Under the pieces are notes generated by a model. The model was not told where the DNA came from. It saw only the letters and a program-made list of their open reading frames with translations, and searched no databases. Below, piece by piece: positions 3,515-20,337 of a DNA stretch of 64,000 nucleotides. Source of the DNA: Labilibaculum sp. DW002 (lineage in GTDB: Bacteria > Bacteroidota > Bacteroidia > Bacteroidales > Marinifilaceae); contig NZ_JAKJSC010000001.1 of NCBI RefSeq assembly GCF_029029525.1, positions 558,001 through 622,000 of the forward strand, read 5' to 3'. The first letter of the stretch is position 1. Each line of letters starts with the position of its first letter. Position numbers and translations under genes: made by a program.

Positions 3515-3633
3515 CAGCCTGAAAGCAAAAAGGAGTTAAGAGTCTTCTTCTTTTACTGATCAGTAGATCGGGTTTTCAATAGAGATAACAACCAAAATTT
3601 TAAGCGAACAAACACCAATAAGTCATGGTGCTT

Positions 3634-3648
3634 AATTGATTTTCAATT
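3634..3648. promoter_or_regulatory. inverted repeat upstream of pflB, possible operator
   Basis: AATTGA and TCAATT arms are separated by three T, centred about 60 bp before the pflB start. The half-site resembles TTGA-type CRP/FNR family half-sites, but the spacing is not the classical one. Regulation by oxygen or redox is an inference only. Confidence 0.25.
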
Positions 3649-3701
3649 GATCCCTGACTGATGATTGTTCCATTCAACCATTGAAAAAAATCATTATTAG
3701 A

Positions 3702-5927
3702 ATGAAAAGAGTTCAATTCAAAGCCGGTGAGTGGCAAAAAACTATTAACGTAAGAGATTTCGTTAGTAACAATCTAACTTCTTACGAAGGAGATGCTTCA
3801 TTCTTAACTGGAGCAACAGAACGCACAAAAAAATTATGGGACATCTGTAAAGATGCAGTAAAAGAAGAGCGCGCAAACAACGGTGTTCGCTCTATAGATA
3901 CTGAAACAGTATCAACAATTGCTTCTCACGGAGCAGGATATATCGACAAATCATTGGAGTTAATCGTAGGTCTTCAGGCTGACGAATTGCTTCGTAGAGC
4001 AATGAAACCTTATGGTGGTATTGCGGTTGTTGAGAAAGCATGTACTGAGCAAGGTCTTGAAGTTTCAGATCGTGTTAAGGATATTTTTCGCAATTTCGCA
4101 AAAACTCATAATGATGGTGTTTTTGATGCTTATACTGATGAAATTCGTAAATTTCGTTCATTAGGTTTCCTTACAGGCCTTCCTGATAACTACGCTCGTG
4201 GTCGTATTATTGGTGACTACCGTCGTGTGGCTCTTTACGGTATCGACCGTTTGATCGAAGTAAAGAAAGCTGACTTAGCAGGTTTGACCGGATCTATGAC
4301 AGATGAATTGATTCGTCTTCGTGAAGAGGTTTCAGAGCAGATTAAAGCTTTAGGTGAAATTAAGGCATTAGGTGCGAAATATGGTTTAGAGTTGAATCGT
4401 CCGGCTGAAACAGCTCAAGAAGCTATTCAGTGGGTATATATGGGTTACCTGGCTGCTGTTAAGGAGCAAGATGGTGCTGCAATGTCACTGGGTAATGTTT
4501 CTACTTTCCTTGATATTTATATCGACAGAGATCTTCAGGAAGGTACAATTACTGAAGAATTTGCTCAGGAAATGCTTGATCAATTCGTAATGAAATTGCG
4601 TATGGTTCGTCACCTTCGTATGAATGCTTACGATGAGATTTTCGCTGGCGACCCAACTTGGGTAACTGAGTCAATTGGTGGTAAAACTATGGACGGTAGA
4701 ACTAAGGTAACTAAAACCTCTTTCCGTTTCCTTAACACGCTATACACTCTGGGAGCTTCTCCAGAGCCAAACATGACTGTTCTTTGGTCAGACGAATTAC
4801 CAGAAGGATTCAAGAAATTCTGTGCTCAGGTTTCTATCGATACGTCTTCTATTCAGTACGAGAATGATCAATTGATGCGTGATACGCGTAAGTCTGATGA
4901 TTATGGTATTGCTTGTTGTGTTTCTTACCAGGAGATTGGAAAGCAAATTCAGTTCTTCGGCGCTCGTTGTAACTTGGCTAAAACACTTCTTTTGGCTCTT
5001 AACGGTGGACGTTGTGAGAAAACAGGTACATTACTTATCGAAGGTATTCCGGCAATGTCTAGCGACGTGTTGAACTATGACGAGGTAATGAGCAACTATA
5101 TGATTGCGATGAAGCAAATGGCTCGTGTTTATAGCGATTCAATGAACATTATCCACTATATGCACGATAAGTACTACTACGAGAAAGCTCAAATGTCTCT
5201 GGTTGATACAAACCCTGCTATTAACCTAGCATACGGTATTGCCGGTCTTTCTATTGTAGCTGACTCGTTATCTGCAATTAAAAATGCTAAAGTAACTTCT
5301 GTACGTAATGAAGAAGGTTTAACAGCTGATTTCAAAATTGAAGGTGATTTTCCATTTTATGGTAACGATGATGATGCAGTAGACTGTTTTGCTGTTGAGA
5401 TTCCAAACATCTTTAATGGTATGTTGAAAGATCTACCAACTTATAAGAATGCTGAAGCTACTATGTCTATTCTGACTATTACTTCTAATGTGGTATATGG
5501 TTTGAAGACTGGTGCAACTCCTGATGGTAGAGCAGCTGGTGTGCCTTTCGCTCCTGGTGCGAATCCAATGCACGGACGTGATAAGAATGGTGCTATTGCT
5601 TCATTGAACTCAGTAGCTAAGATTAATTACGAAGATTCTTTGGATGGTATCTCAAATACTTTCTCAATTGTTCCTAAGTCATTAGGTGCAACAGAAGAAT
5701 CACGTCAAGAGAACTTGGTGACTATGATGGATGCCTATTTTACTAAAGGTGCTCATCACTTGAACGTAAATGTATTGAACCGTGAGCTTCTTATGGATGC
5801 AATGGAGCGCCCGGAAGAATACCCGCAGTTGACTATTCGTGTATCAGGTTACGCAGTAAACTTCGTAAGATTGACTCGCGAGCAGCAGTTAGAGGTTATT
5901 TCTCGTTCTTTCTTCGAGAAAATGTAA
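3702..5927 (+). CDS. pflB: formate C-acetyltransferase (pyruvate formate-lyase)
   Basis: A 741-residue cytoplasmic glycyl-radical enzyme that converts pyruvate and CoA to acetyl-CoA and formate under anaerobic conditions. The adjacent catalytic cysteines are C405-C406 in [10 protein letters not shown]. The glycyl-radical site near the C-terminus is RVSGYAVNF (G716), the segment that the activating enzyme must reach. The length is normal for the family. I start at ATG 3702 ([11 protein letters not shown]); a TTG seven codons earlier is in frame but adds an unconserved extension. A terminator-like hairpin follows, then pflA and a formate channel on the same strand. Confidence 0.97.
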
Positions 5928-8438: not shown

Positions 8439-9608
8439 CTACTTATTCTTAACCGTAACAAGCGCAGCCATTTCTTTGGCTTGATCAACGCAAGTGAAAA
8501 CATTTGTACCAACCGTATTGTAGGCTAATGTTACACCCATTCTTCGGTGCTCGCGACTTGTTGGTTTTCCAAAGAAACGCAAATCTGATTTTGGATAAAT
8601 TGCAGCTTTCTCCACTCCCTCAAAATAGGGGTTATTACCTTCTTTATCGGCTAAAATAACAGCACTTGCTCCTACTCTTTCCAAGGTAATTTCAGAAATT
8701 GGCAAACCCAATACGGCACGACAATGCAATTCGAATTCACTAAAATTCTGCGTTCCTGCTAAAGTAACCATTCCTGTATCGTGAGGACGTGGAGATAATT
8801 CAGAGAAGACAACACCATCTTCGCAAATAAAGAACTCTACTCCCCAAAGTCCTGATCCCGTTAAAGAGGAAGTGACCTTGGCTGCCATATCTTGTGCAAC
8901 TTTTACATCAGCATCAGAAACCACTGCTGGCTGCCAACTTTGTTGGTAATCACCACGTTCCTGAACATGACCAATTGGTGGACAAAACAGTGTTGAACCA
9001 TCCTTTTGAGTAACGGTTAGTAAGGTAATTTCTGAAGTAAACTTCACAAAAGCTTCTACAATAACATCACCAGAATCGCCACGACCTTTCGATCCTGCAA
9101 TTTCCCATGCTTTTGCAATATCATCATGGCATTTAATTACCGATTGACCTTTTCCGGATGAAGACATTAATGGTTTAACTACACATGGCATTCCAACCTC
9201 TTCAACAATTGGGTACATCTCTTCTAAAGAGCTTGCATACAAATATTTTGCCGTACGTATTCCTAAATCTTTAGCTGCTAAATCGCGAATGGCTCTTCTA
9301 TCCATTGTAAAATTTGCTGCCTTAGCACTTGGAACAACCTGAATTCCTTGCTTCTCATAATCGTAAAATCGTTCGGTACGAATGGCTTCGATTTCTGGCA
9401 CAATTAAATCTGGCTGATGCTTGGCAACAACTAAATCTAAAGCGTCACCATTTAGCATGTCAATTACCTCAAAGGCATCTGCTACTTGCATTGCTGGAGC
9501 TCCCGCGTAACTATCTACGGCTACTACATTTTGACCTAAACGCTGAGCAGCAATAACAAACTCTTTTCCTAGCTCCCCCGAGCCCAATAGTAAAATCTTT
9601 TTTACCAT
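8439..9608 (-). CDS. purT: formate-dependent phosphoribosylglycinamide formyltransferase (GAR transformylase 2)
   Basis: A 389-residue ATP-grasp enzyme that makes formyl-GAR from GAR, ATP and free formate in purine synthesis, replacing the folate-dependent PurN step. The N-terminus has the nucleotide-binding glycine motif [12 protein letters not shown], followed by the PurT-typical PEIEAIRTE segment. The ATP-grasp core is seen at [33 protein letters not shown] and [16 protein letters not shown]. The length matches the family (about 390). Its substrate, formate, is the product of the PFL genes 2.5 kb away on the other strand, which makes the pairing functionally sensible. Confidence 0.96.
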
Positions 9609-10350: not shown

Positions 10351-10995
10351 TTATTTACCATTGGTTTTCAACAACTTTAGGCCTTCCATAGCAGATAAAT
10401 CATGAGGAAAATACCAAAGACTCTTCTCAAAAAGGACTAAGGCTTCGCGACTTTTTCCCATATGATAGTTAGTCCAAGCCAGCATAATCAGTGCATCATA
10501 TTTAAACGGATATAAATCAACCACTTTTTTAAAATGAAAATGTGCCATTTCATAAGACTCCTGCCCATAATAAATTAGTCCTAAACGATAATTTGCTACA
10601 GTTTGATTGGGAGAGATCTCTAGAATTTCCTTATAAAGATTTACCACCTCAGTCCATTTCCCCATAGCAGCTTTAGGCAGAACCAATCCGAATTTTGCCT
10701 CCTCTGCATAAGGTTTTAAATTTATCGCACGTTGATAGTGTGCAATAGCTTCGGTAAATACTCCTGCTTGATAATTAAGCCATCCCAGACGCAAGTTTAT
10801 TTCATACGAATCTTCATCATAAACTTCTTTCAATTGCTCAAGTGCATGAGAAAAATCACCTTCTTTTTCATACTTATAGCTCTCATCGAACGCAGTTCTA
10901 ACAGTCTCAAAATTCTGACCTGATAAACTACTAAATTCAAGAATTAGCATGATTAGACTGAACAATACGTATTTAATAATCCTTAGAATTTCCAT
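10351..10995 (-). CDS. TPR-repeat exported protein, last gene of the PqqD/ATP-grasp operon
   Basis: A 214-residue protein with a hydrophobic N-terminus (about residues 6-22, IKYVLFSLIMLILEFSS) and four or five tetratricopeptide repeats (for example AIAHYQRAINLKPYAEEAK and VVNLYKEILEISPNQTVANY). It is probably periplasmic or membrane-attached and acts as a protein-interaction scaffold. Its start overlaps the end of the barrel gene by 13 nt, which indicates translational coupling. With the TPR region of the neighbouring barrel protein it may form one envelope complex; that is inference. Confidence 0.8.
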   Translation of the reverse strand: MEILRIIKYVLFSLIMLILEFSSLSGQNFETVRTAFDESYKYEKEGDFSHALEQLKEVYDEDSYEINLRLGWLNYQAGVFTEAIAHYQRAINLKPYAEEAKFGLVLPKAAMGKWTEVVNLYKEILEISPNQTVANYRLGLIYYGQESYEMAHFHFKKVVDLYPFKYDALIMLAWTNYHMGKSREALVLFEKSLWYFPHDLSAMEGLKLLKTNGK

Positions 10996-12449
10996 TTTAC
11001 ACCTCCAGTTATCGATTGTACATTAACATGCTGACTGTTTAATATATCAGATATCACATAAGTGTTTTTTTCTTTTTGATGTTGATATAATAGAAATAAG
11101 CTCAATTTTCCTTTAAATACATATTGATAACAACTTATATCAATTTTAGTTTTTACATGATTGACCCCATTAAATACCGAATAGCCTTCATTCTCTACTT
11201 GCATATACATATCTCCAAAGCTATATCCCACTTGCCCCCATGTATTTTTTGCTATTCGAAACCCTAATCCACCTTTCCAATACTGCCGATTCAACCAACC
11301 TGTTTCTAATTTTTCTTCCATTTGATTCGTGAAACCACCCATTAGATAAAGATTTAGATTTCCTTTAGGATAGTAACGAACAGACAGCTCCTGTTGCCAT
11401 CGAGTTAAATGATTTGCCTCAAAATACAATAGTCCAAGGCTCACTTTCCAATTGGATATATCCTGATGAAGTCCTAAAATCCCAATATAACTATTTTGAG
11501 TATTCACATAAGGCTCAATTTCAACAGTAGATGCAGGAACACTATCTTCGCCGTCACCACTTCCTTCATCGCCATTTCCACCTTCACCGCTTTCACCATC
11601 ACCATTTCCTCCATTACCATTGCCATTACCATTACCATTACCTCCATTACCATTTCCAGCGATACTGGCTCCTTTCAATTTTGATATTTTCATTGCTGAT
11701 TCAATTATTGTTTCTGCAGAAAGAGGATAGCCTTTCAGCTTAGTTCTTAGCCAATGTCCTCCAAAAATCAATTCTGTTCCGCACCCTAATCGAAAAGAGC
11801 TTTTCAAATAATATTGATTTTGGCTTATTTTCTCATTAAAAGAAATACCTTCCAACACACTTGAATTCTTCAAATCTACCCAGCTGTAGGCATGAAATAA
11901 TGATACTCGACTCCCCAATTGATGATTCAGCCCTAAACTATAATGGTGAAAATAATTGCGAACTGTTTGCTCTTGAATCTGATCAGAATCGACCGTATAA
12001 TCATCAATAAATTCATATTTCGTTTCAGTATAAATTCCAGAAATAAGTTTCGTTTTACCAATGCTGTATTTTTTCTTAACAGATTGAGGCAAATCATTTT
12101 GCATACGTATTGCATCTATATTTCTACCCCCTAAGATATAGGAAAAGTACAAATACTCTTTCAGGCTAACATCCTCAGGATTCTGTTGAGAAAGCTTTTG
12201 AAAAAAAACAGCCGATTTCCGATATTTCTTCAGTTCATAATAGGCAATCCCCATTCGTAAACGCAAATAATAAAAATCAATACCTTGCTCAATATATTTT
12301 TCACCTAGCAATATGAGTTGTTGCCATTGCTGTTTTTGATAAAGCTCATAGGTCTCCTTGTGCACTTGATTAACACTCATCATTTCCTGAGCATAAACAT
12401 GTGTACTAATCAAAATACTCAATATCAATATGCCTGCATATTTCCACAT
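10983..12449 (-). CDS. outer-membrane barrel protein with N-terminal TPR and Gly/Asn-rich loop
   Basis: A 488-residue protein with a signal peptide (AGILILSILISTHVYAQ). Residues 30-110 resemble TPR repeats (FYYLRLRMGIAYYELKKYRK). The rest has the alternating aromatic and polar strands of an outer-membrane beta-barrel and ends in ITGGVKWKF, a C-terminal aromatic typical of such barrels. A low-complexity Gly/Asn/Asp/Glu stretch near residues 265-300 probably forms an exposed loop. It overlaps the preceding gene by 25 nt and the following one by 13 nt. The function is unknown; the operon suggests export or anchoring of a product made by the ATP-grasp and decarboxylase enzymes. Confidence 0.8.
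   Translation of the reverse strand: MWKYAGILILSILISTHVYAQEMMSVNQVHKETYELYQKQQWQQLILLGEKYIEQGIDFYYLRLRMGIAYYELKKYRKSAVFFQKLSQQNPEDVSLKEYLYFSYILGGRNIDAIRMQNDLPQSVKKKYSIGKTKLISGIYTETKYEFIDDYTVDSDQIQEQTVRNYFHHYSLGLNHQLGSRVSLFHAYSWVDLKNSSVLEGISFNEKISQNQYYLKSSFRLGCGTELIFGGHWLRTKLKGYPLSAETIIESAMKISKLKGASIAGNGNGGNGNGNGNGNGGNGDGESGEGGNGDEGSGDGEDSVPASTVEIEPYVNTQNSYIGILGLHQDISNWKVSLGLLYFEANHLTRWQQELSVRYYPKGNLNLYLMGGFTNQMEEKLETGWLNRQYWKGGLGFRIAKNTWGQVGYSFGDMYMQVENEGYSVFNGVNHVKTKIDISCYQYVFKGKLSLFLLYQHQKEKNTYVISDILNSQHVNVQSITGGVKWKF
11605..11660. repeat. hexanucleotide-type repeats encoding the Gly/Asn-rich loop
   Basis: The plus strand reads repeated CCATTA and CCATTG/CCTCCA units, coding on the minus strand for Gly-Asn repeats. 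Units are multiples of three, so slippage would change loop length without breaking the frame. Confidence 0.7.
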
Positions 12450-14647
12450 TTTATTTCTAATGTTTCTCCATTTTTATGAATCCTAATTTGAATAGAAGCC
12501 GAGTTTTCTAGAACAATTTCACTTTTAAAATGTTCCTTCTTAGTAAGATAATTACAAATTACTTTAGATGTAAGCTCAATTTTATCGGTAGTAATTCCAT
12601 TGACCTTATTCAAATAATTTAATTGATACTCCGACTTTAAATAAATGTAAAATGGAGCTATAAAATCCTGTATGAAAAGTTTTCCAACTCCATAAACTAG
12701 GTTAGGGGGAACTTCTTCCCTCACATTTAAATTCGGATAATAGCCGAGGTAAACTTTATAACAAGAGAGATACAAATAATACAAAAGAGAACGTTTATTA
12801 CCTAGATAATTATGGAACTGTAAAACGTTGCCTTCTATACTAAAGTAGGCTCGTGAATTGGTGAAGCTACAGTATAGATATGTATTCGCTAGAATATCTG
12901 ACTTCACTTCAAAATGCCATTTTTTTTGGTGTAAAACCATTTTAAGATTGTCTCCTGATATCACATCAAAGCAAAATTTCTGCCCTGTTTGAAAACTCAA
13001 TGCTTGATTTAAAAGAGGATGAGCTTCTCCCCTTAACAATTTAGCAGACTTTAGGGGACGAGAGTAAGATTTAAGTTCAACTTGCTTCTTTACACGCTCC
13101 ATATAATGCGGCAAAGCGACATCGAAGGTAGCTGAACCAATATATGGTGTGGTTTGAAATTGAAAATGAATGTGCGGAAAGGGTGATCTGCCCGAATTAC
13201 CACAAGCTCCCAACACATCTCCCTTTTTTACAAAATCTCCCTTTTTCACCTTAATACTCGCTTCCCGGAAATGGCTAAGCTGAGAATAGAGCCCATTTTG
13301 ATGGTGAATGACCAAACTATTTCCCCAATTCTGATCTAAATTGACTTTGCCAATCTCGTTATCTGGTACACCATCTAAAACATTTACAATTTGACCTTCC
13401 GCTGGACATAGAATTGTTTTATTGTAACAGTAGTAGTCATCAACAATATCACCTTGATTCGTAAATTGTTTATTTTGTTCATCAACAATTGCAAAATCCC
13501 AAGCATGACGCCATTCATCCTTATGCGTATATTCTCCATCATAAGCTTGAGTAACTGTCCATTCGCCAATAAATGGCAATTGAAAATCTGACAGCATAAT
13601 GGAAGATTTTCGAAGGAAATTATTTTTAGAGAAATACAAATTCTTTTCGGGAGAATTATGCTGTACACTTACCTCTTGCAATTTTTCACTGGGCTTGTAT
13701 CTTAATTTTAAGATGTACAAAAATATTAGGGTAACTACATTAAATGGAAGTGCATAAATGGAAAGCCGATAAGGTGCGAACCAATGCATGCTACTAAGCG
13801 TAACTAATACAACTATTGGTAAAAGAAGTACAATCCATAAATAAGAATACAAAGAAGGGATAAGGTAAAATCCTCCAAGAGCTATTGAAGTTAGTATAAA
13901 GTTAAAGCCGATATAAGTATAACTCAATTCATTGATGTTCGCGCCAATCAAACCATAAAAAAAATAGGCAACATAAAAGCCAAATATCGCCAAAGTAAAA
14001 GCGATTCTGGAATAGATAAGTAAGCCAAACAGAATAAGTAAACCTGCCAACCAATTACTTTGAAAGAAAATAGCACCAAGTGATTTTAGAAAAACAGAAA
14101 CCGAATAGAAGAGTTCAAAATTTTGAATCCGATGATAGAGATTTACAAGCAACTGACCTCCCATATCATAAAATTCATTGGCTTCATAAATACCTCTTTC
14201 ACTAATCCCCAAAGTTGTTAAATCACTACTAGCCATCATGATCATCCAAAGGCCTAAGAGAAACGGAACACTTAAAAAAGGCAAAGCATATTTTGTAAAA
14301 ACTCCCTGCAGAAATAAGCTTATAAAGAGTGTCAATACAGAAGATAAAATAACAAGCAAAGCAATTTCTATACTAGGTTGAAAATATAAGCCGATCCCTA
14401 AACCAACCAATAGACTATTAAAGCCGTAGGTCCCATCTTTGATATAATAAGACGAGAACCCCATTGCAAAAGCAATAACATTTGCGGCCACTAATGAAAT
14501 AAGTCCAGATAGACCTGCCCAAACATCAAAAAAACTGACCAATAGCAATAGAAAAGCAAAGGTTTTGTTTCTTGAAAAAAACACCTGAGCATAACTGTTT
14601 AGGATGGCCTCTCCTAAAAATAGTATGTTCTTTTTTAATGCTTTCAT
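12425..14647 (-). CDS. urea-transporter-like membrane domain fused to an M23 peptidase domain
   Basis: A 740-residue two-part protein. Residues 20-310 are about ten hydrophobic helices with urea-transporter features (GTYGFNSLLVGLGIGLYF; LPFLSVPFLLGLWMI). After a linker, residues 365-500 form an M23/LytM-type fold with likely metal ligands H381 and D384 (RHAWDFAI, spacing one shorter than the usual HxxxD) and H494 (HIHFQFQ, H492 to H494), plus LSHF at H459. The last 230 residues are not recognised. The ATG overlaps the decarboxylase stop (ATGA). The M23 part would act in the periplasm on peptidoglycan or another cross-linked peptide, while the channel may pass urea or a similar small polar compound. 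This fusion is known in some Bacteroidota, but its role is not. Confidence 0.88.
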   Translation of the reverse strand: MKALKKNILFLGEAILNSYAQVFFSRNKTFAFLLLLVSFFDVWAGLSGLISLVAANVIAFAMGFSSYYIKDGTYGFNSLLVGLGIGLYFQPSIEIALLVILSSVLTLFISLFLQGVFTKYALPFLSVPFLLGLWMIMMASSDLTTLGISERGIYEANEFYDMGGQLLVNLYHRIQNFELFYSVSVFLKSLGAIFFQSNWLAGLLILFGLLIYSRIAFTLAIFGFYVAYFFYGLIGANINELSYTYIGFNFILTSIALGGFYLIPSLYSYLWIVLLLPIVVLVTLSSMHWFAPYRLSIYALPFNVVTLIFLYILKLRYKPSEKLQEVSVQHNSPEKNLYFSKNNFLRKSSIMLSDFQLPFIGEWTVTQAYDGEYTHKDEWRHAWDFAIVDEQNKQFTNQGDIVDDYYCYNKTILCPAEGQIVNVLDGVPDNEIGKVNLDQNWGNSLVIHHQNGLYSQLSHFREASIKVKKGDFVKKGDVLGACGNSGRSPFPHIHFQFQTTPYIGSATFDVALPHYMERVKKQVELKSYSRPLKSAKLLRGEAHPLLNQALSFQTGQKFCFDVISGDNLKMVLHQKKWHFEVKSDILANTYLYCSFTNSRAYFSIEGNVLQFHNYLGNKRSLLYYLYLSCYKVYLGYYPNLNVREEVPPNLVYGVGKLFIQDFIAPFYIYLKSEYQLNYLNKVNGITTDKIELTSKVICNYLTKKEHFKSEIVLENSASIQIRIHKNGETLEIKCGNMQAY

Positions 14648-15996
14648 TGTGATTTAAGATGTTCTGGAATATTTTCCATAGCATTGAACTGTTCGTAGGT
14701 TTCTTTCTTACGAATAAGATGTATTTTTCTATCCTCATCAATAAGCAAAACTGGAGGTCTTAATTTTATAAATTGCATCCACTGAGTCATATTATAGGCC
14801 CCGATTCTAGGAATCACAACAGTATCGCCTCTTTGAAGAAGAGGAAACTGAACAGCTTCTCGTATTACATCAATATTCATACAAAGCGGCCCGTAGATAG
14901 TCGTATTTTCTGTTTGTTCCGATTTCTGACGTGTTGGTAACACATCATGTTCGTACCAAAAAGATGTAAATAGCATATTCACTCCAATATCAATAACGGT
15001 TGCTCGGCGTCCATCTACTAAGCGTTTATTGGCTAAAACACTTCCTAACAAAAAACCGGCATCGTCAACCAAAGCCCTGCCCGATTCTAGAATTAAAAGA
15101 GGCAGATTTTCTGGAGGCAATTCACTAGCTAGCAAAGCAGAAGTTATCGCTTCAGCATAATCATCGAAAGATGGGCAAGTATCAGTACCGGGAAGATAAG
15201 CCCCTTTAAGGGTGTTTTTTGATGCAAAACCTCCTCCTAAATCAATATATTTCACGTGAGAATTAAACTTTCGAAACAAGCGAGTAGACAAATCAGCCAA
15301 TTTTTCAGCTGCAATAGCATAAGCTTTTACGGCTGTTATATAAGTTCCCATATGAGTATGTAAGCCCAATAACTCCATATGTTCATGCAACATGATACGA
15401 TTCATAGCATGCCATGCCTCACCATTCTCAAGATTAAATCCAAAACGATCCCATCGAGGATAAATACCCGCATCTAAATTTATTCGAATCGCTACATTTG
15501 CTTTTTTATTGAGTTTTTGAGCCAACTCTCCAAGGAAGTAAAATTCATCTAAACTATCCAAATGAATCATAGCTCCATCTTGAATGGCCCTTTCCAAATC
15601 CTCTTTTGATTTTTCTGGACCGTTAAATATGATCTGATCACCTGAAATGCCATTTTCAATAGCCTTAGTGTATTCAAAGCCAGACACGACTTCGGCCCAT
15701 GCTCCTTCTGAATGAAACACTTTACATACCGCATTTAAATAGTTGGTTTTATAAGACCATGCGAACTGCACTCTCGGATAACGAGAAGCAAATGCCTTTT
15801 GAGCCTGTCGATAGGTTTTACGAATACAGGGCTCCGAAATCACGTATAAAGGAGAACCAAACTGTTCCATAATATCTGCTATGGCAACCTCTTCAATATG
15901 GCTGATGACAGGAACTCGGGTACTCATCCCAAATTTATCGGGCATCCCTGCATTAACTTTATTAATTATAGGCCGTTCGTAATCTAATTTTTTCAT
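14644..15996 (-). CDS. PLP-dependent amino-acid decarboxylase (DAP/ornithine/arginine type, fold III)
   Basis: A 450-residue alanine-racemase-fold decarboxylase. K83 in FAWSYKTNYLNAV is the PLP lysine. HTHMGTY, LGGGFAS and the ESGRALV segment are the PLP-phosphate and dimer motifs, and GPLCMNID contains the partner active-site cysteine, followed by IPRIGAYNMTQ. It resembles LysA but lacks lysine-pathway neighbours, so the substrate is more likely an amino acid or amino-acid conjugate in this operon's pathway. The stop overlaps the next ATG by 4 nt. A 147-bp gap separates it from the ATP-grasp gene. Confidence 0.87.
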   Translation of the reverse strand: MKKLDYERPIINKVNAGMPDKFGMSTRVPVISHIEEVAIADIMEQFGSPLYVISEPCIRKTYRQAQKAFASRYPRVQFAWSYKTNYLNAVCKVFHSEGAWAEVVSGFEYTKAIENGISGDQIIFNGPEKSKEDLERAIQDGAMIHLDSLDEFYFLGELAQKLNKKANVAIRINLDAGIYPRWDRFGFNLENGEAWHAMNRIMLHEHMELLGLHTHMGTYITAVKAYAIAAEKLADLSTRLFRKFNSHVKYIDLGGGFASKNTLKGAYLPGTDTCPSFDDYAEAITSALLASELPPENLPLLILESGRALVDDAGFLLGSVLANKRLVDGRRATVIDIGVNMLFTSFWYEHDVLPTRQKSEQTENTTIYGPLCMNIDVIREAVQFPLLQRGDTVVIPRIGAYNMTQWMQFIKLRPPVLLIDEDRKIHLIRKKETYEQFNAMENIPEHLKSQ

Positions 15997-16143
15997 CTTA
16001 TTCTGATTTTAAATTATGCCCATAGAGTAGTTGCCTATTGTTAGGCTTCTTTGTGCAACAAGTACTGTTAAGAGCTAGTTTCTACTTATTCAAATTTCAG
16101 TTTCTCATATCTATTCGAACTTGATATTGGAATTAAAATAACA

Positions 16144-17190
16144 TCACATTTCTCCTTTAACAGATAGGCTTCCAAACTGAGAAATATCTCCAATTAAATC
16201 GTATGAGTATCGAATAAACATTTTCCCTACTTCATAACTCGAAAATGGTGGAGGACTCATTCCTAAAGCAAGTTTTACTAGAGCTTCCGGTAAATTTTGT
16301 CCTGCTGCAACAGCCAAGTAAACCCAAGCAGGAATTCTAGGATTAATTTCAATTAAATAATACTCATTATTAACTGTTTTTATTAATTCCAATTCCATTC
16401 CTCCTTGCCATTTGGTATTTCGAATCAGATCTCGAGTTAATGCCAACATTTTATCGTTCTGAATGGTTATGCCTCCCCAAGCTTTTCCCTTATCAGTAAT
16501 ATATTGTTTACGCATTGGAACCGCGCCTATTGTATTGCCCAAACCATCACCAAGCGCAATCACATTTACCTCGGTGCCACGAATAAACTCTTGAATAATT
16601 ACTGGCATACCCCACTTTGCTGAAATTCGGTTAAAATAACTGTTTACCTGCTCTGTTGAATAAGCCAAATAAGCATCGTAAAATTTACCTTTTACAAGTA
16701 GTGGAAATTCAAAAAAATCCTTAAGCTTTTCAATATCACATCTATTCGTAATCACTTTACTAAAAGGAACTTTAACACCATATTTTTCACCATATTGATT
16801 AAGATTTGCCTTTTGCCGCTCCTCAAACTGATCTATCGTAGGTAAGAAAGTTTTGATTCCAATTTTCTCAAGTCTTTCCTTAGATTGGATGAAGGTGAAT
16901 AACTCTGCATCAAAATTAGGGATGATAACATCAAGTCTTTCTTTTGAATGAATGAATTCAATTCGATTTAGTAAGGTATCTATTCCTGATGATGGATAAG
17001 GAATTTGATAAGTTTTGTCAACCATTTCAGGCATATAAATGCCTGGTTCTAGGTTTTCGTAGGCCAAACCAATAACTCGCACATCAAAATCTTTACTTTC
17101 TCTGAGTCCACGAATAACGGGTATTCCAGGTCCTGGATTGTCCGTATTATTTAACCCAGTTACAGCGATATGATACTTTGGTTTTTTCAT
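16144..17190 (-). CDS. ATP-grasp ligase of the PqqD operon
   Basis: A 348-residue ATP-grasp protein with a pre-ATP-grasp N-terminal domain (HIAVTGLNNTDNPGPGIPV) like carbamoyl-phosphate-synthase-type ligases. The ATP-binding core shows FPLLVKGKFYDAYL, VIIQEFIRGTEVNVIALG and the metal site YLIEINPRIPAWVYLA. Such enzymes join a carboxylate to an amine or thiol through an acyl phosphate. I start at ATG 17190, four bases after the PqqD stop; a longer frame reaches back into the PqqD gene but is unlikely. With a PqqD-like partner it may modify a carrier peptide, which is inference. Confidence 0.85.
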   Translation of the reverse strand: MKKPKYHIAVTGLNNTDNPGPGIPVIRGLRESKDFDVRVIGLAYENLEPGIYMPEMVDKTYQIPYPSSGIDTLLNRIEFIHSKERLDVIIPNFDAELFTFIQSKERLEKIGIKTFLPTIDQFEERQKANLNQYGEKYGVKVPFSKVITNRCDIEKLKDFFEFPLLVKGKFYDAYLAYSTEQVNSYFNRISAKWGMPVIIQEFIRGTEVNVIALGDGLGNTIGAVPMRKQYITDKGKAWGGITIQNDKMLALTRDLIRNTKWQGGMELELIKTVNNEYYLIEINPRIPAWVYLAVAAGQNLPEALVKLALGMSPPPFSSYEVGKMFIRYSYDLIGDISQFGSLSVKGEM

Positions 17191-17194
17191 TTTG

Positions 17195-17443
17195 TCACTT
17201 TTTACTTTCAAGCAATTCGTGATGTTGTAATATTTCAAGAAAATCATCCATATTTTTCTCAAGAGTTACCAAATCCACTTCATATTTATCCAAGATTAAC
17301 TGCTTGATATCTGCAACCTCATTCCCCTCCTTCAAATGATTCATAATTTCTTTTGCAATAGGATTTAGGAGAAAGGAGTCTCCTGTTTCCGGATTAAATA
17401 AAAATCCATTTTCACTAATCGCTATGTTTTTTTTTAACTTCAT
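17195..17443 (-). CDS. PqqD-like small protein (RiPP recognition element fold)
   Basis: An 82-residue protein with the PqqD pattern: an N-terminal beta segment (ENGFLFNPETGDSFLLNP) followed by IAKEIMNHLKEG and a helical C-terminus (FLEILQHHELLE). PqqD domains form a winged-helix peptide-binding fold used in peptide-modification pathways, often next to radical SAM or ATP-grasp enzymes. It lies four bases before the ATP-grasp gene and opens the operon. No precursor peptide is recognisable nearby, so it could serve another peptide encoded elsewhere or have a different role. Confidence 0.82.
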   Translation of the reverse strand: MKLKKNIAISENGFLFNPETGDSFLLNPIAKEIMNHLKEGNEVADIKQLILDKYEVDLVTLEKNMDDFLEILQHHELLESKK

Positions 17444-17635: not shown

Positions 17636-18241
17636 CTAATACAAGGCGTTTAGGGATTTTTTATTTTTTACCCCACATTTTTTATATTCCGATACCGAAA
17701 TGCCTGTCATTTTATGAAACTGGTTTGAAAGATATTGAACGCTACTATAATCCATTATAAAAGCGATTTCGCTGAGTGTTAACTCATCCTGATCAACCAA
17801 TTCTTTTATTCGTTCAACTTTATTAAGAATAATAAATCGCTCAAGAGTAATGTCTTCGTATTTGGAGAAAATTTTGGATAATTGTTGATAGCTGAGTCCT
17901 AATTTGTCAACTAGGTATTCTGACTTTTGTACAATGGAGTCTACATTATTCATTTGATGAATCAATTCGATTACAGCAATTTTAATTTGCTCAACAATTT
18001 GTCGTTCATGGCCAATTATAATTTCCATTCCAATCTCTTGAAGAATGCTATTTACTTTTTCTAAGCCTAGTTGATCTGGATTGTAAGTTATGGTGGCCAT
18101 ACCCAATTTAACCTGATCGATACGAATACCATTCTCCTCAAAAACAGCACATAATACTCGCACACAACAATTACAAACCATATTTTTAATGTAGATGGTT
18201 TCGGTTTGCAAATTATCATTTTTAGGTAGTAATTTGTTCAT
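17636..18241 (-). CDS. HMA-like domain fused to AraC-type DNA-binding domain
   Basis: A 201-residue regulator. Residues 15-75 form a heavy-metal-associated-like fold with MVCNCCVRVL (CxxC, with an extra Cys inside), and residues 95-190 are an AraC/XylS domain with two helix-turn-helix motifs (LTLSEIAFIMDYSSVQYLSNQFHKMTGISVSEYKK). HMA domains bind copper or other soft metals, so the protein may sense a metal or thiol state. It lies directly upstream of the PqqD operon on the same strand and is its most likely regulator. The assignment to that operon is inferred from position alone. Confidence 0.85.
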   Translation of the reverse strand: MNKLLPKNDNLQTETIYIKNMVCNCCVRVLCAVFEENGIRIDQVKLGMATITYNPDQLGLEKVNSILQEIGMEIIIGHERQIVEQIKIAVIELIHQMNNVDSIVQKSEYLVDKLGLSYQQLSKIFSKYEDITLERFIILNKVERIKELVDQDELTLSEIAFIMDYSSVQYLSNQFHKMTGISVSEYKKCGVKNKKSLNALY

Positions 18242-18493: not shown

Positions 18494-20092
18494 CTAATTT
18501 CTTCCGCCTCTACGTCCTCCACCAGAACCGCCATCATCACCATCTGAAACAGAATCATCATCGCCATGTCCATCTGGCTTGTTTCCATGAGATTCTTCGT
18601 CTGGCACGTAATTAAATGGTGCATTACCGCCTCGATCAATAAAATGACCGATACCCCAAGTAGGAGTTCCTATTTCCCAAACCAAAAACTCTTCATTGTT
18701 ATGAACAACTTCTAGAGCTTGCACATAATCATCAGCCTGACAGGCAAATCCAAGTGCACCAGTAGTTGGCTGCTCTTCTTTTTGTGTATATCTATAGGTT
18801 GCTATAGCATCAACTGTCAATGGAGCATTTCCCATTAAAATATCATCCAATAATAAATCTTCAGCAAGAGTTTCGTTATGAGAACCGATTAAATTTCCAT
18901 CTTCATCGTAGTCTCCTACAATCGTAACGTAATCTAAAAGAGTTTCTTTAAATTTCCTTCTATCATAAGAAAAACTAGAAAAATCAACATAGTATCTATA
19001 GCGAGAATACTGATGCTTATCCGTTTTATCCATCATTCGAATTTCCTGTTCGATTGTTGGTAAAAAACAATTAACAGTAGTTGCTGGTTTATCTATTCCA
19101 TTCCCAATCACTTCGGGAACTCCCATAAATAAATTCACAAAAACAATTTCATCGATTATTAGTGTATTTGTTTTATCTGATCCTGCAGAAATACAGGCAG
19201 CTGCTACATTCATAATCAACTGAACTGGGTCAGATACTTCAGAATAGGATTTTGCCCCACCTACCCAATCATGATCAACTCTAAATTGCATATCATAGCC
19301 ACCATAACCATTATCGATTTCGATTAAAAATTTTAATCCGTTCTCATCTACTCCTCCATTAAATCCGTTCAGCAATAATTCTTTGTATATGGCAAGATTT
19401 TCAAGAGGAGAATCAATTGGTTTATCTTCTCCATCAAGGTCTAATGCTGCATCAGTACGCAACATCATGATCCTTCCGCAAAAATCTCGAGTAACATTGG
19501 CGACGGTTCCATCTCCAAAATTTTTAATGACTTCGGATAAACGTTTTGAAATAACCGAAGATGGTGACCGAATGATGTTTAAACGACCCATTTCGATAGG
19601 TGTTACATGCTCTGCTACTGTTGGCATAATCTCACCTTCAGCATCGTAAAGAGCAATTACATTAGCTTCGCCTTCAACATATCCATCATCATTTAGTACG
19701 ACTGTGACCTCTTCTGTAAGAGGATTCTCCTCAGATTCATAAATAACATATCCTTCTGCATCTCGAGCCAAAGCGTCAAAAGTAAAAGGCTCATCAAGTT
19801 TTGGATTCACCACATCAATAATTCCAATAACAGGTACATCCTTATATTCTACATGATAATTTAATTCATAAGTAATTGGAACACCAGAATTATCACGTTC
19901 CATCACCCATAAATCTCCATACAAATCAGCTTGATCTACTTCTGTCTTTTTACCCCCTTTTTTTAAAGATAGGTTTTGTTGTTCTTGTTCTTGATTTCTT
20001 TCAGGTTCCATAAACTCATCTTCGCAAGAAGAGAAAAAAGCCAAACCAATAATTAGAAAAAACACACAAGGTGCGAATAGTTTTTTTTTCAT
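18494..20092 (-). CDS. hypothetical lipoprotein with Gly/Arg-rich C-terminus
   Basis: A 532-residue protein starting at ATG 20092 with a lipoprotein signal (FLIIGLAFFSSC, lipobox Cys near residue 23). The mature part is acidic and has a Ser/Gln/Glu-rich linker, then several hundred residues of mixed strands with no family I recognise. It ends in an Asp/Gly-rich tail followed by GGRRGGRN. It is probably attached to the outer membrane. A divergent LuxR-type regulator starts 245 bp away. A longer upstream in-frame start exists but would bury the signal peptide, so it is rejected. Confidence 0.78.
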   Translation of the reverse strand: MKKKLFAPCVFFLIIGLAFFSSCEDEFMEPERNQEQEQQNLSLKKGGKKTEVDQADLYGDLWVMERDNSGVPITYELNYHVEYKDVPVIGIIDVVNPKLDEPFTFDALARDAEGYVIYESEENPLTEEVTVVLNDDGYVEGEANVIALYDAEGEIMPTVAEHVTPIEMGRLNIIRSPSSVISKRLSEVIKNFGDGTVANVTRDFCGRIMMLRTDAALDLDGEDKPIDSPLENLAIYKELLLNGFNGGVDENGLKFLIEIDNGYGGYDMQFRVDHDWVGGAKSYSEVSDPVQLIMNVAAACISAGSDKTNTLIIDEIVFVNLFMGVPEVIGNGIDKPATTVNCFLPTIEQEIRMMDKTDKHQYSRYRYYVDFSSFSYDRRKFKETLLDYVTIVGDYDEDGNLIGSHNETLAEDLLLDDILMGNAPLTVDAIATYRYTQKEEQPTTGALGFACQADDYVQALEVVHNNEEFLVWEIGTPTWGIGHFIDRGGNAPFNYVPDEESHGNKPDGHGDDDSVSDGDDGGSGGGRRGGRN

Positions 20093-20337
20093 GACATACG
20101 GTTTTAAAGTGAACAAAAATTGTTTAATAAGTAAAATACTTTGAAGTAATAAGTTAAGCAAAGAACAAAAAGTGATCAATCCTCATTTCGTGTATTTTAC
20201 TCCGCCCATTTCGCTCACTCCCTGTCAACAAAACGATTAGCTAATCAATCAAAAAGAGATGTTGCTTTAAAAAAAATCAATAAAAATAATATACCCTTTA
20301 ATAAAAACTCCGTAACTTAAGTAAACAATAAAGAATT

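Follow-up and report, generated by a model that had tools for sequence, protein, structure and literature searches.

What does a recognition element for ribosomally synthesized and post-translationally modified peptides (RiPPs) recognize when no precursor peptide is found beside it? RiPP recognition elements (RREs) serve as genome-mining beacons for ribosomal natural products, according to PMC12710340, and the question is raised here by a block of six open reading frames (ORFs) in Labilibaculum sp. DW002 (assembly GCF_029029525.1, contig NZ_JAKJSC010000001.1). The block occupies 10351-17443, all on the minus strand, of the window, by which we mean the whole 64,000-nt stretch analyzed (contig positions 558,001-622,000, forward strand). 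In gene order it encodes a PqqD-like RRE, an ATP-grasp ligase, a pyridoxal-phosphate (PLP) decarboxylase, a urea transporter-M23 peptidase fusion (UT-M23), a putative outer-membrane barrel and a tetratricopeptide-repeat (TPR) protein. The first two genes are 4 nt apart, 147 nt separate the ligase from the decarboxylase, and the remaining junctions overlap by 4, 25 and 13 nt, so that the ORF coordinates match the compact arrangement with one larger gap that a sequence-only reading of the stretch had described. On balance, we favor the view that this is a non-RiPP metabolic cassette in which the RRE acts as an enzyme-docking scaffold, its likely client, judging from sequence co-variation, being the N-terminal tail of the decarboxylase itself.

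A lasso-type RRE without a conserved precursor

The 82-aa RRE (17195-17443, minus strand) is the sole PF05402 match in the genome and scores well as a winged-helix PqqD-like domain (45.1 bits, cut-off 23.4), but falls below the model for PqqD of the PQQ pathway (TIGR03859, 19.8 bits against a cut-off of 46). Its profile matches the lasso-type B1 proteins TbiB1 (2.6e-12) and TfuB1 (2.1e-8) in the PDB, compared with 0.016 for PqqD, and 9x90 (PbaB1) is also among its relatives there. The published complexes, as described in PMC13381572, have lasso-type RREs binding leaders of the form [Y/W]xxPx[L/V/I/F/A] that lie in a cleft. In LppB, N33 and D70 make the key polar contacts to the peptide and F74 divides the cleft; the D70A mutation weakens leader binding and N33A nearly abolishes it, and an Asp at the position equivalent to our residue 64 holds the leader Tyr (PMC13381572). 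Counting from conserved residues, these three positions correspond to N27 (codon 17363-17365, minus strand), residue 64 (Asn in this genome, codon 17252-17254, minus strand) and F68. N27 is present in 184/184 RREs and F68 in 173/184.

The sequence-only reading had the RRE presenting a precursor peptide and proposed a search for a conserved short ORF near its gene; that search turned up none, and this part of the proposal is not supported. Among 459 ATG-initiated ORFs of 20-111 aa that lie in unoccupied sequence no more than 3 kb from the cassette, counted over 81 loci, a scan confined to ORFs clear of the six genes and of large neighbors, no family occurs in more than 4 loci, and the only family to reach 4 consists of fragments of the upstream helix-turn-helix gene. 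Comparing all ORFs of 55 aa or more with one another at 15 loci likewise gave no precursor candidate, nor did the flanking families at 80 loci. The lasso B2 domain PF13471 has 0 matches in the organism's own genome, in a search that was positive in 2 of 14 control genomes. With neither this domain in the genome nor a conserved precursor near the cassette, the locus does not qualify as a lasso peptide pathway, and the feature that defines an RRE, recognition of a motif in a ribosomal precursor, has no apparent counterpart here: the motif, and the co-variation with the RRE, are found on the decarboxylase.

The decarboxylase tail co-varies with the RRE

The FslC-like decarboxylase (450 aa; 14644-15996, minus strand) begins with about 30 extra residues that its best solved relatives leave unaligned. 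In an AlphaFold2 model built from 61 sequences the body of the enzyme is confident and residues 6-22 have predicted local distance difference test (pLDDT) values below 50. This apparently disordered tail (residues 1-23, 15928-15996) contains a motif at Y6-I11 (15964-15981) and an invariant lysine, K21 (15934-15936), found in 185/185 sequences. The pattern [Y/F]xxPx[I/L/V/M] occurs in 185/185 tails, 139 of which fit the published motif strictly; shuffled tails match at rates of 0.025 (strict) and 0.065 (relaxed) per tail.

The first residue of this motif, tail residue 6, tracks RRE residue 64. Among the non-redundant pairs, Tyr accompanies Asn or Asp in 139 cases and Phe accompanies Tyr, Ser or Ala in 44, with His64 occurring once with each. 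These pairs comprise an initial 84 (Tyr with Asn 31, Asp 12 and His 1; Phe with Tyr 30, Ser 9 and Ala 1) and 102 from later loci (Tyr-Asp 96, Phe-Tyr 4, Phe-His 1, and one unreadable tail, L155), six new loci with duplicate ATP-grasp sequences having been dropped. Four additional loci are all Phe-Tyr, and a genome with an unlinked decarboxylase fits as well, its tail (L238) carrying Tyr and its RRE (L082) D64. RRE64 predicts the state of the tail at 0.982, compared with 0.496 for the next best of 869 columns in the same three proteins (RRE, ATP-grasp and decarboxylase). In a scan of RRE-decarboxylase pairs, (64,6) ranks first of 33,152, and the pair (53,4), close to where the leader residue preceding the motif is anchored in the published complexes, ranks third (fourth in a second scan).

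Several points weigh against this reading. The site was first spotted by eye on 14 aligned sequences, before any counting, and Phe and Met were admitted to the motif after the tails had been seen; only the 102 later loci thus give a fresh test of the pairing, with few Phe cases among them. His64 occurs with both kinds of tail, and the tail alone finds no match in NCBIfam or the PDB. Columns that mark clades, ATP-grasp residue 286 among them (z 11.5), co-vary with RRE64 too, so pair rank alone is insufficient. On the ATP-grasp tree (184 rows; L076, in which the ATP-grasp frame is split, was left out of the trees) the tail state changes 7 times, with 4 changes on supported branches, all 4 concordant with the RRE (p 0.125; 3/3 in the first 83 rows). 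The tree of the decarboxylase body gives 4 changes, 3 of them supported and 3/3 concordant (p 0.25). The supported independent switches thus number 3-4, too few for significance; the prediction contrast over 869 columns that share the same history is a stronger control than these tree counts.

A widespread and tightly conserved cassette

That the six genes travel as a unit, as the sequence-only reading had supposed, is confirmed by comparison across genomes. All six occur in order at 52 of 80 named loci (L076, with its split frames, included); the other 28 are incomplete, most of them ending at or near a contig end, and 0 are reordered. These are the best 80 of 589 candidates, and the sample therefore favors near relatives. 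UT-M23 is present in 16 of 59 relatives' genomes searched, our own included. Twelve of 15 fetched neighborhoods carry all six genes, three (L024, L027 and L031, the last with divergent enzymes and UT-M23) are broken off by contig ends, and in L026 and L030 unrelated genes lie between the decarboxylase and UT-M23. In a sample of the phylum, the ATP-grasp gene (E up to 1e-60) is found in 34/395 genomes, and UT-M23 matches spanning both parts, some of them in pieces, are found in exactly these 34 genomes, sharing a contig with ATP-grasp and lying close to it; 13 further genomes match through M23 alone. The cassette occurs in 76/395 genomes of a class sample and in 13/244 of another class; the phylum and class samples overlap, and the counts of 34 and 76 both include our own genome. 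The six-gene arrangement recurs far beyond chance, and the cassette is real and widespread, patchy in distribution but tightly conserved. The accessible parts of the open PubMed Central (PMC) literature contain no description that we found of this gene set or of an RRE binding an enzyme tail.

Tracing six interrupted loci in their assemblies recovered the decarboxylase in 6/6, away from the locus in two, and UT-M23 in 6/6, away from the locus in five, where it is nearly complete, though one copy has an internal stop. These loci come mostly from metagenome assemblies, so binning errors are possible. The sixth locus counts against our reading: all that is left of UT-M23 is a stub of 140 aa (L101:12481-12903), beyond which lie unrelated genes, although the enzyme genes are intact.

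Two loci stand out in this comparison. Between the decarboxylase and UT-M23 of L026, positions 3581-5258 hold a gene for an AAA_21 ATPase and an ORF of 133 aa, resembling an insertion into the cassette. In L113, from a genome of another class (G063), ATP-grasp scores 625.8 bits, close to the scores of near relatives, which hints at horizontal transfer; this locus is one of the two His64 cases.

A model for RRE-directed enzyme docking

We propose a three-step model. First, the RRE would bind the decarboxylase at its disordered N-terminal tail, by way of [Y/F]xxPx[I/L/V/M], a step that the co-variation, read against the published RRE complexes, makes highly probable. The ATP-grasp enzyme would then build an amino acid into an amide, from which the docked decarboxylase would take off the amino-acid carboxylate, a chemistry about which we are evenly divided. 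A small amide-type product could finally pass an inner-membrane channel of the UT fold, with its fused M23 zinc-hydrolase domain, and cross the outer membrane through the putative barrel with its TPR partner; this route is tentative, a shade short of an even call.

The ligase and decarboxylase and the purpose of the cassette

Both enzymes bear on the second step. The solved decarboxylase closest to ours is the N-citrylornithine decarboxylase FigC/FslC (7kh2, 268.8 bits), with LysA at 197 and BtrK at 142, and Pfam assigns our enzyme to Orn_Arg_deC_N (102.7 bits, cut-off 23.4) and Orn_DAP_Arg_deC (52.5, cut-off 23). It scores below the cut-off for FslC proper (NF041039, 225.1 bits against 500) and for LysA (TIGR01048, 227.3 against 297.9), and a separate gene in the genome reaches 388.9 bits on the latter model; the decarboxylase of the cassette is not the LysA of this cell, which supports the sequence-only reading. 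FigC is proposed to use H357 and R387 for citrate (PMC7857480). Here these are replaced by Ile375 and Gln405, neither of which varies across 61 rows, while FigC M355 (beside the catalytic Cys), T327, Y331 and Y383 are retained as M373, T344, Y348 and Y401. Also absent from the pocket is the acidic residue with which ordinary diamino-acid decarboxylases bind the amine of the side chain. From the replaced citrate residues and the retained pocket residues, the substrate is likely a large amide-type amino acid rather than N-citrylornithine or a free diamino acid, and it is for this reason that we place the ATP-grasp step first.

The ATP-grasp ligase (348 aa; 16144-17190, minus strand) is identified by Pfam (ATPgrasp_Ter, 39.8 bits, cut-off 29.1), NCBIfam, its translation and an alignment of 14 sequences. 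We take the ATG at 17190 as its start; a longer ORF from 17262 opens at an upstream TTG. Kinship with PylC was considered and dropped because the weak PylC_N match is unspecific, PurT matching the same model below cut-off. A search of PHROGs returned nothing for the RRE, the ligase or the decarboxylase. A ligase and a decarboxylase joined to an envelope module, as the sequence-only reading had it, is still the best account of the cassette; what lacks support is the precursor peptide presented by the RRE.

Could the product be a metal ligand? The two enzymes might make a rhizoferrin-like or other metallophore under AraC/HMA-like control, and the FigC/FslC kinship would suit this. A gene for an AraC-type regulator with a degenerate HMA-like N-terminus lies upstream of the cassette (17636-18241, minus strand; HTH_18 47.2 bits), and of the 67 loci that have over 900 bp of upstream sequence, 38 have a homologue near the RRE gene, one of these being a fragment and one lying 8.5 kb off. 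The two paralogues closest to the regulator within the genome adjoin a P-type ATPase gene with an HMA domain and lie near a resistance-nodulation-division (RND) pump gene; we treat this metal-linked neighbor as a lead only. Against a metallophore stand the loss of both FigC citrate residues, the shortfall on NF041039, the regulator's HMA match below cut-off (14.9 bits against 24.8) and the lack, among the six genes, of an NRPS-independent siderophore (NIS) synthetase or a TonB receptor. We consider this purpose unlikely; it would be compatible with the docking scaffold, as what the scaffold is for.

A urea-channel fold fused to a metallopeptidase

UT-M23 (740 aa; 12425-14647, minus strand) combines two recognizable domains. 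Residues 14-313 (13709-14608) form a urea-transporter domain (PF03253, 202.2 bits, cut-off 25, 1.3e-59) that adopts the fold of the urea channel dvUT (3k3f, 3me1) in a structural model with a mean pLDDT of 88.9, and resembles it in sequence as well. It scores 129.7 bits on TIGR03441, whose cut-off is 274.6. Three positions that we take to be pore residues have fared differently: the second-repeat Glu of dvUT is Ala in 56 sequences and Ser in 4, the first-repeat Thr is Ser in 60/60, and the first-repeat Gln is kept in 54/60. These substitutions, the fused M23 domain and a further C-terminal domain set the protein apart from dvUT, and we found no description of a urea-channel fold fused to a metallopeptidase in the accessible parts of the open PMC literature.

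The M23 domain (residues ~357-510, 13118-13579; PF01551, 49.5 bits, cut-off 28.7) matches LytM folds and retains H375, D384, H449, H459, H492 and H494 in 60/60 sequences, H381 being present in only 43/60. In our reading, taken from standalone relatives, H375 would be the first M23 ligand. Animal UT-B has both termini inside the cell. Over 60 sequences the mean counts of K+R and D+E are 2.08 and 0.62 in the N-terminal segment, 2.38 and 4.53 in the linker between the UT halves, and 7.47 and 3.60 in the segment preceding M23, charges which suggest that both UT termini lie inside and hence that M23 is cytoplasmic. This prediction conflicts with the standalone M23 relatives of 320-340 aa, a further difficulty for our model: six of 18 were examined (L223-L228), and five look secreted by eye, L228 having several hydrophobic stretches.

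The putative barrel (488 aa; 10983-12449, minus strand) has no Pfam match above cut-off and no NCBIfam match, and when a profile built from 48 relatives is compared with the PDB, the only matches are to TPR proteins and fall in the N-terminal part. A signal-peptide-like start, judged by eye, and a near-invariant last residue, Phe488, fit an outer-membrane barrel. The last gene (10351-10995, minus strand) encodes a 214-aa TPR protein that matches several TPR Pfam models and is predicted to be exported from its signal-like start, also judged by eye. Envelope export or processing is plausible.

The same parts could instead serve the cell wall, with the enzymes making a group that M23, barrel and TPR protein put on or take off, and UT acting as an anchor. 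The intact M23 residues, the secreted look of the standalone relatives and the predicted export of barrel and TPR protein are in keeping with such a role, but the loop charges put M23 inside, the UT fold is kept, and Pfam finds no glycosyl- or lipid-transferase in the cassette, making envelope modification quite unlikely.

Might the tail carry the substrate?

A bolder possibility is that the decarboxylase tail is leader and core in one: the RRE would present it, the ATP-grasp enzyme would load an amino acid on Lys21, the enzyme body would decarboxylate it while it is still attached, and the product would be freed at the mouth of the UT pore by a hydrolase, perhaps M23. K21, invariant in a disordered tail, lies outside the stretch contacted by RREs in the published complexes (PMC13381572). 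Of all columns in the three proteins, none predicts ATP-grasp residue 286 better than tail residues 19 (0.821) and 24 (0.753), residue 286 is in turn the best predictor of residue 19 (0.723), and (19,286) ranks first of 155,456 decarboxylase-ATP-grasp pairs. Residue 286 adjoins N283, P284 and R285, which are invariant in the alignment of 14; the K21 segment may therefore reach the ligase site, making the enzyme a possible carrier of its own substrate. BtrK, a relative of the decarboxylase, has a protein-borne amino acid as its substrate. The link between 19 and 286, however, lacks tree backing: residue 286 changes 3 times, once on supported branches, and its pairings with residue 19 run in the same direction at 0.5, in the opposite direction at 0.1 and without difference at 0.4. 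K21 may be merely structural, the cassette has no thioesterase-like gene, the role given to M23 is guesswork, and the ligase's PylC_N match is too unspecific to help. We regard a self-carrying enzyme as improbable.

We consider a classical RiPP pathway very improbable; its precursor would have to be unlinked, or too short for detection, and the tail motif a coincidence or a competing binder. RREs and ATP-grasp enzymes are commonplace in RiPP clusters, whose precursors can be encoded elsewhere, and 23 small ORFs at 18/81 loci match the tail motif singly, but conservation of any of the 23 extends to 2 loci at most, PF13471 is missing from the genome, and the RRE tracks the decarboxylase tail and no other column.

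Relation to known systems

With the docking scaffold as our preferred explanation, the cassette seems to be a variant of RRE recognition in which an enzyme is docked in place of a precursor. Its RRE is sequence kin to TbiB1, TfuB1, PbaB1 and LppB, with equivalents of the LppB contact residues and a partner motif of the YxxPxI type (PMC13381572). The differences are that the motif sits on a 450-aa enzyme rather than on a precursor, and that Phe tails paired with Tyr, Ser or Ala64 are common. Likewise, FigC/FslC shares the retained pocket residues, and the decarboxylase differs from it in its replaced citrate residues, its extra tail and the absence of an NIS synthetase. Graspetide clusters, in which an ATP-grasp ligase is also found in Bacteroidota and whose small helper proteins have been compared with PqqD by their authors (PMC8939145), differ in having a precursor peptide by the ATP-grasp gene, where the cassette has the decarboxylase and a membrane module.

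Butirosin biosynthesis offers another parallel. BtrJ is reportedly an ATP-grasp ligase, and BtrJ, BtrI and BtrK together pair ATP-grasp chemistry with a decarboxylase of the alanine-racemase fold whose amino-acid substrate is bound to a protein. In contrast, Pfam finds no acyl-carrier protein among our six genes, and an RRE stands in its place.

If the docking model is correct, some RRE hits that lack precursors would be scaffolded small-molecule pathways rather than broken RiPP clusters, and leader recognition would be transferable onto a whole enzyme, a new way of organizing small-molecule production. The natural two-state code, Tyr with Asn or Asp and Phe with Tyr, Ser or Ala, makes the docking idea directly testable. 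Were the tail also to carry the substrate, a catalytic protein, rather than a peptide or a carrier protein, would bear the growing metabolite.

Neighboring genes

Several other genes lie near the cassette. DUF2202 genes stand beside it in 15/80 loci (for example L083:8949-9596), the family being confirmed for two. In our window, a PurT-type ATP-grasp formate enzyme (PF02222, PurT_C) is encoded at 8439-9608, near the cassette and apparently unrelated to it. A 561-aa ORF at 18494-20179, which has no Pfam or NCBIfam match, has relatives of 67-71% identity near the cassette in L018 and L020.

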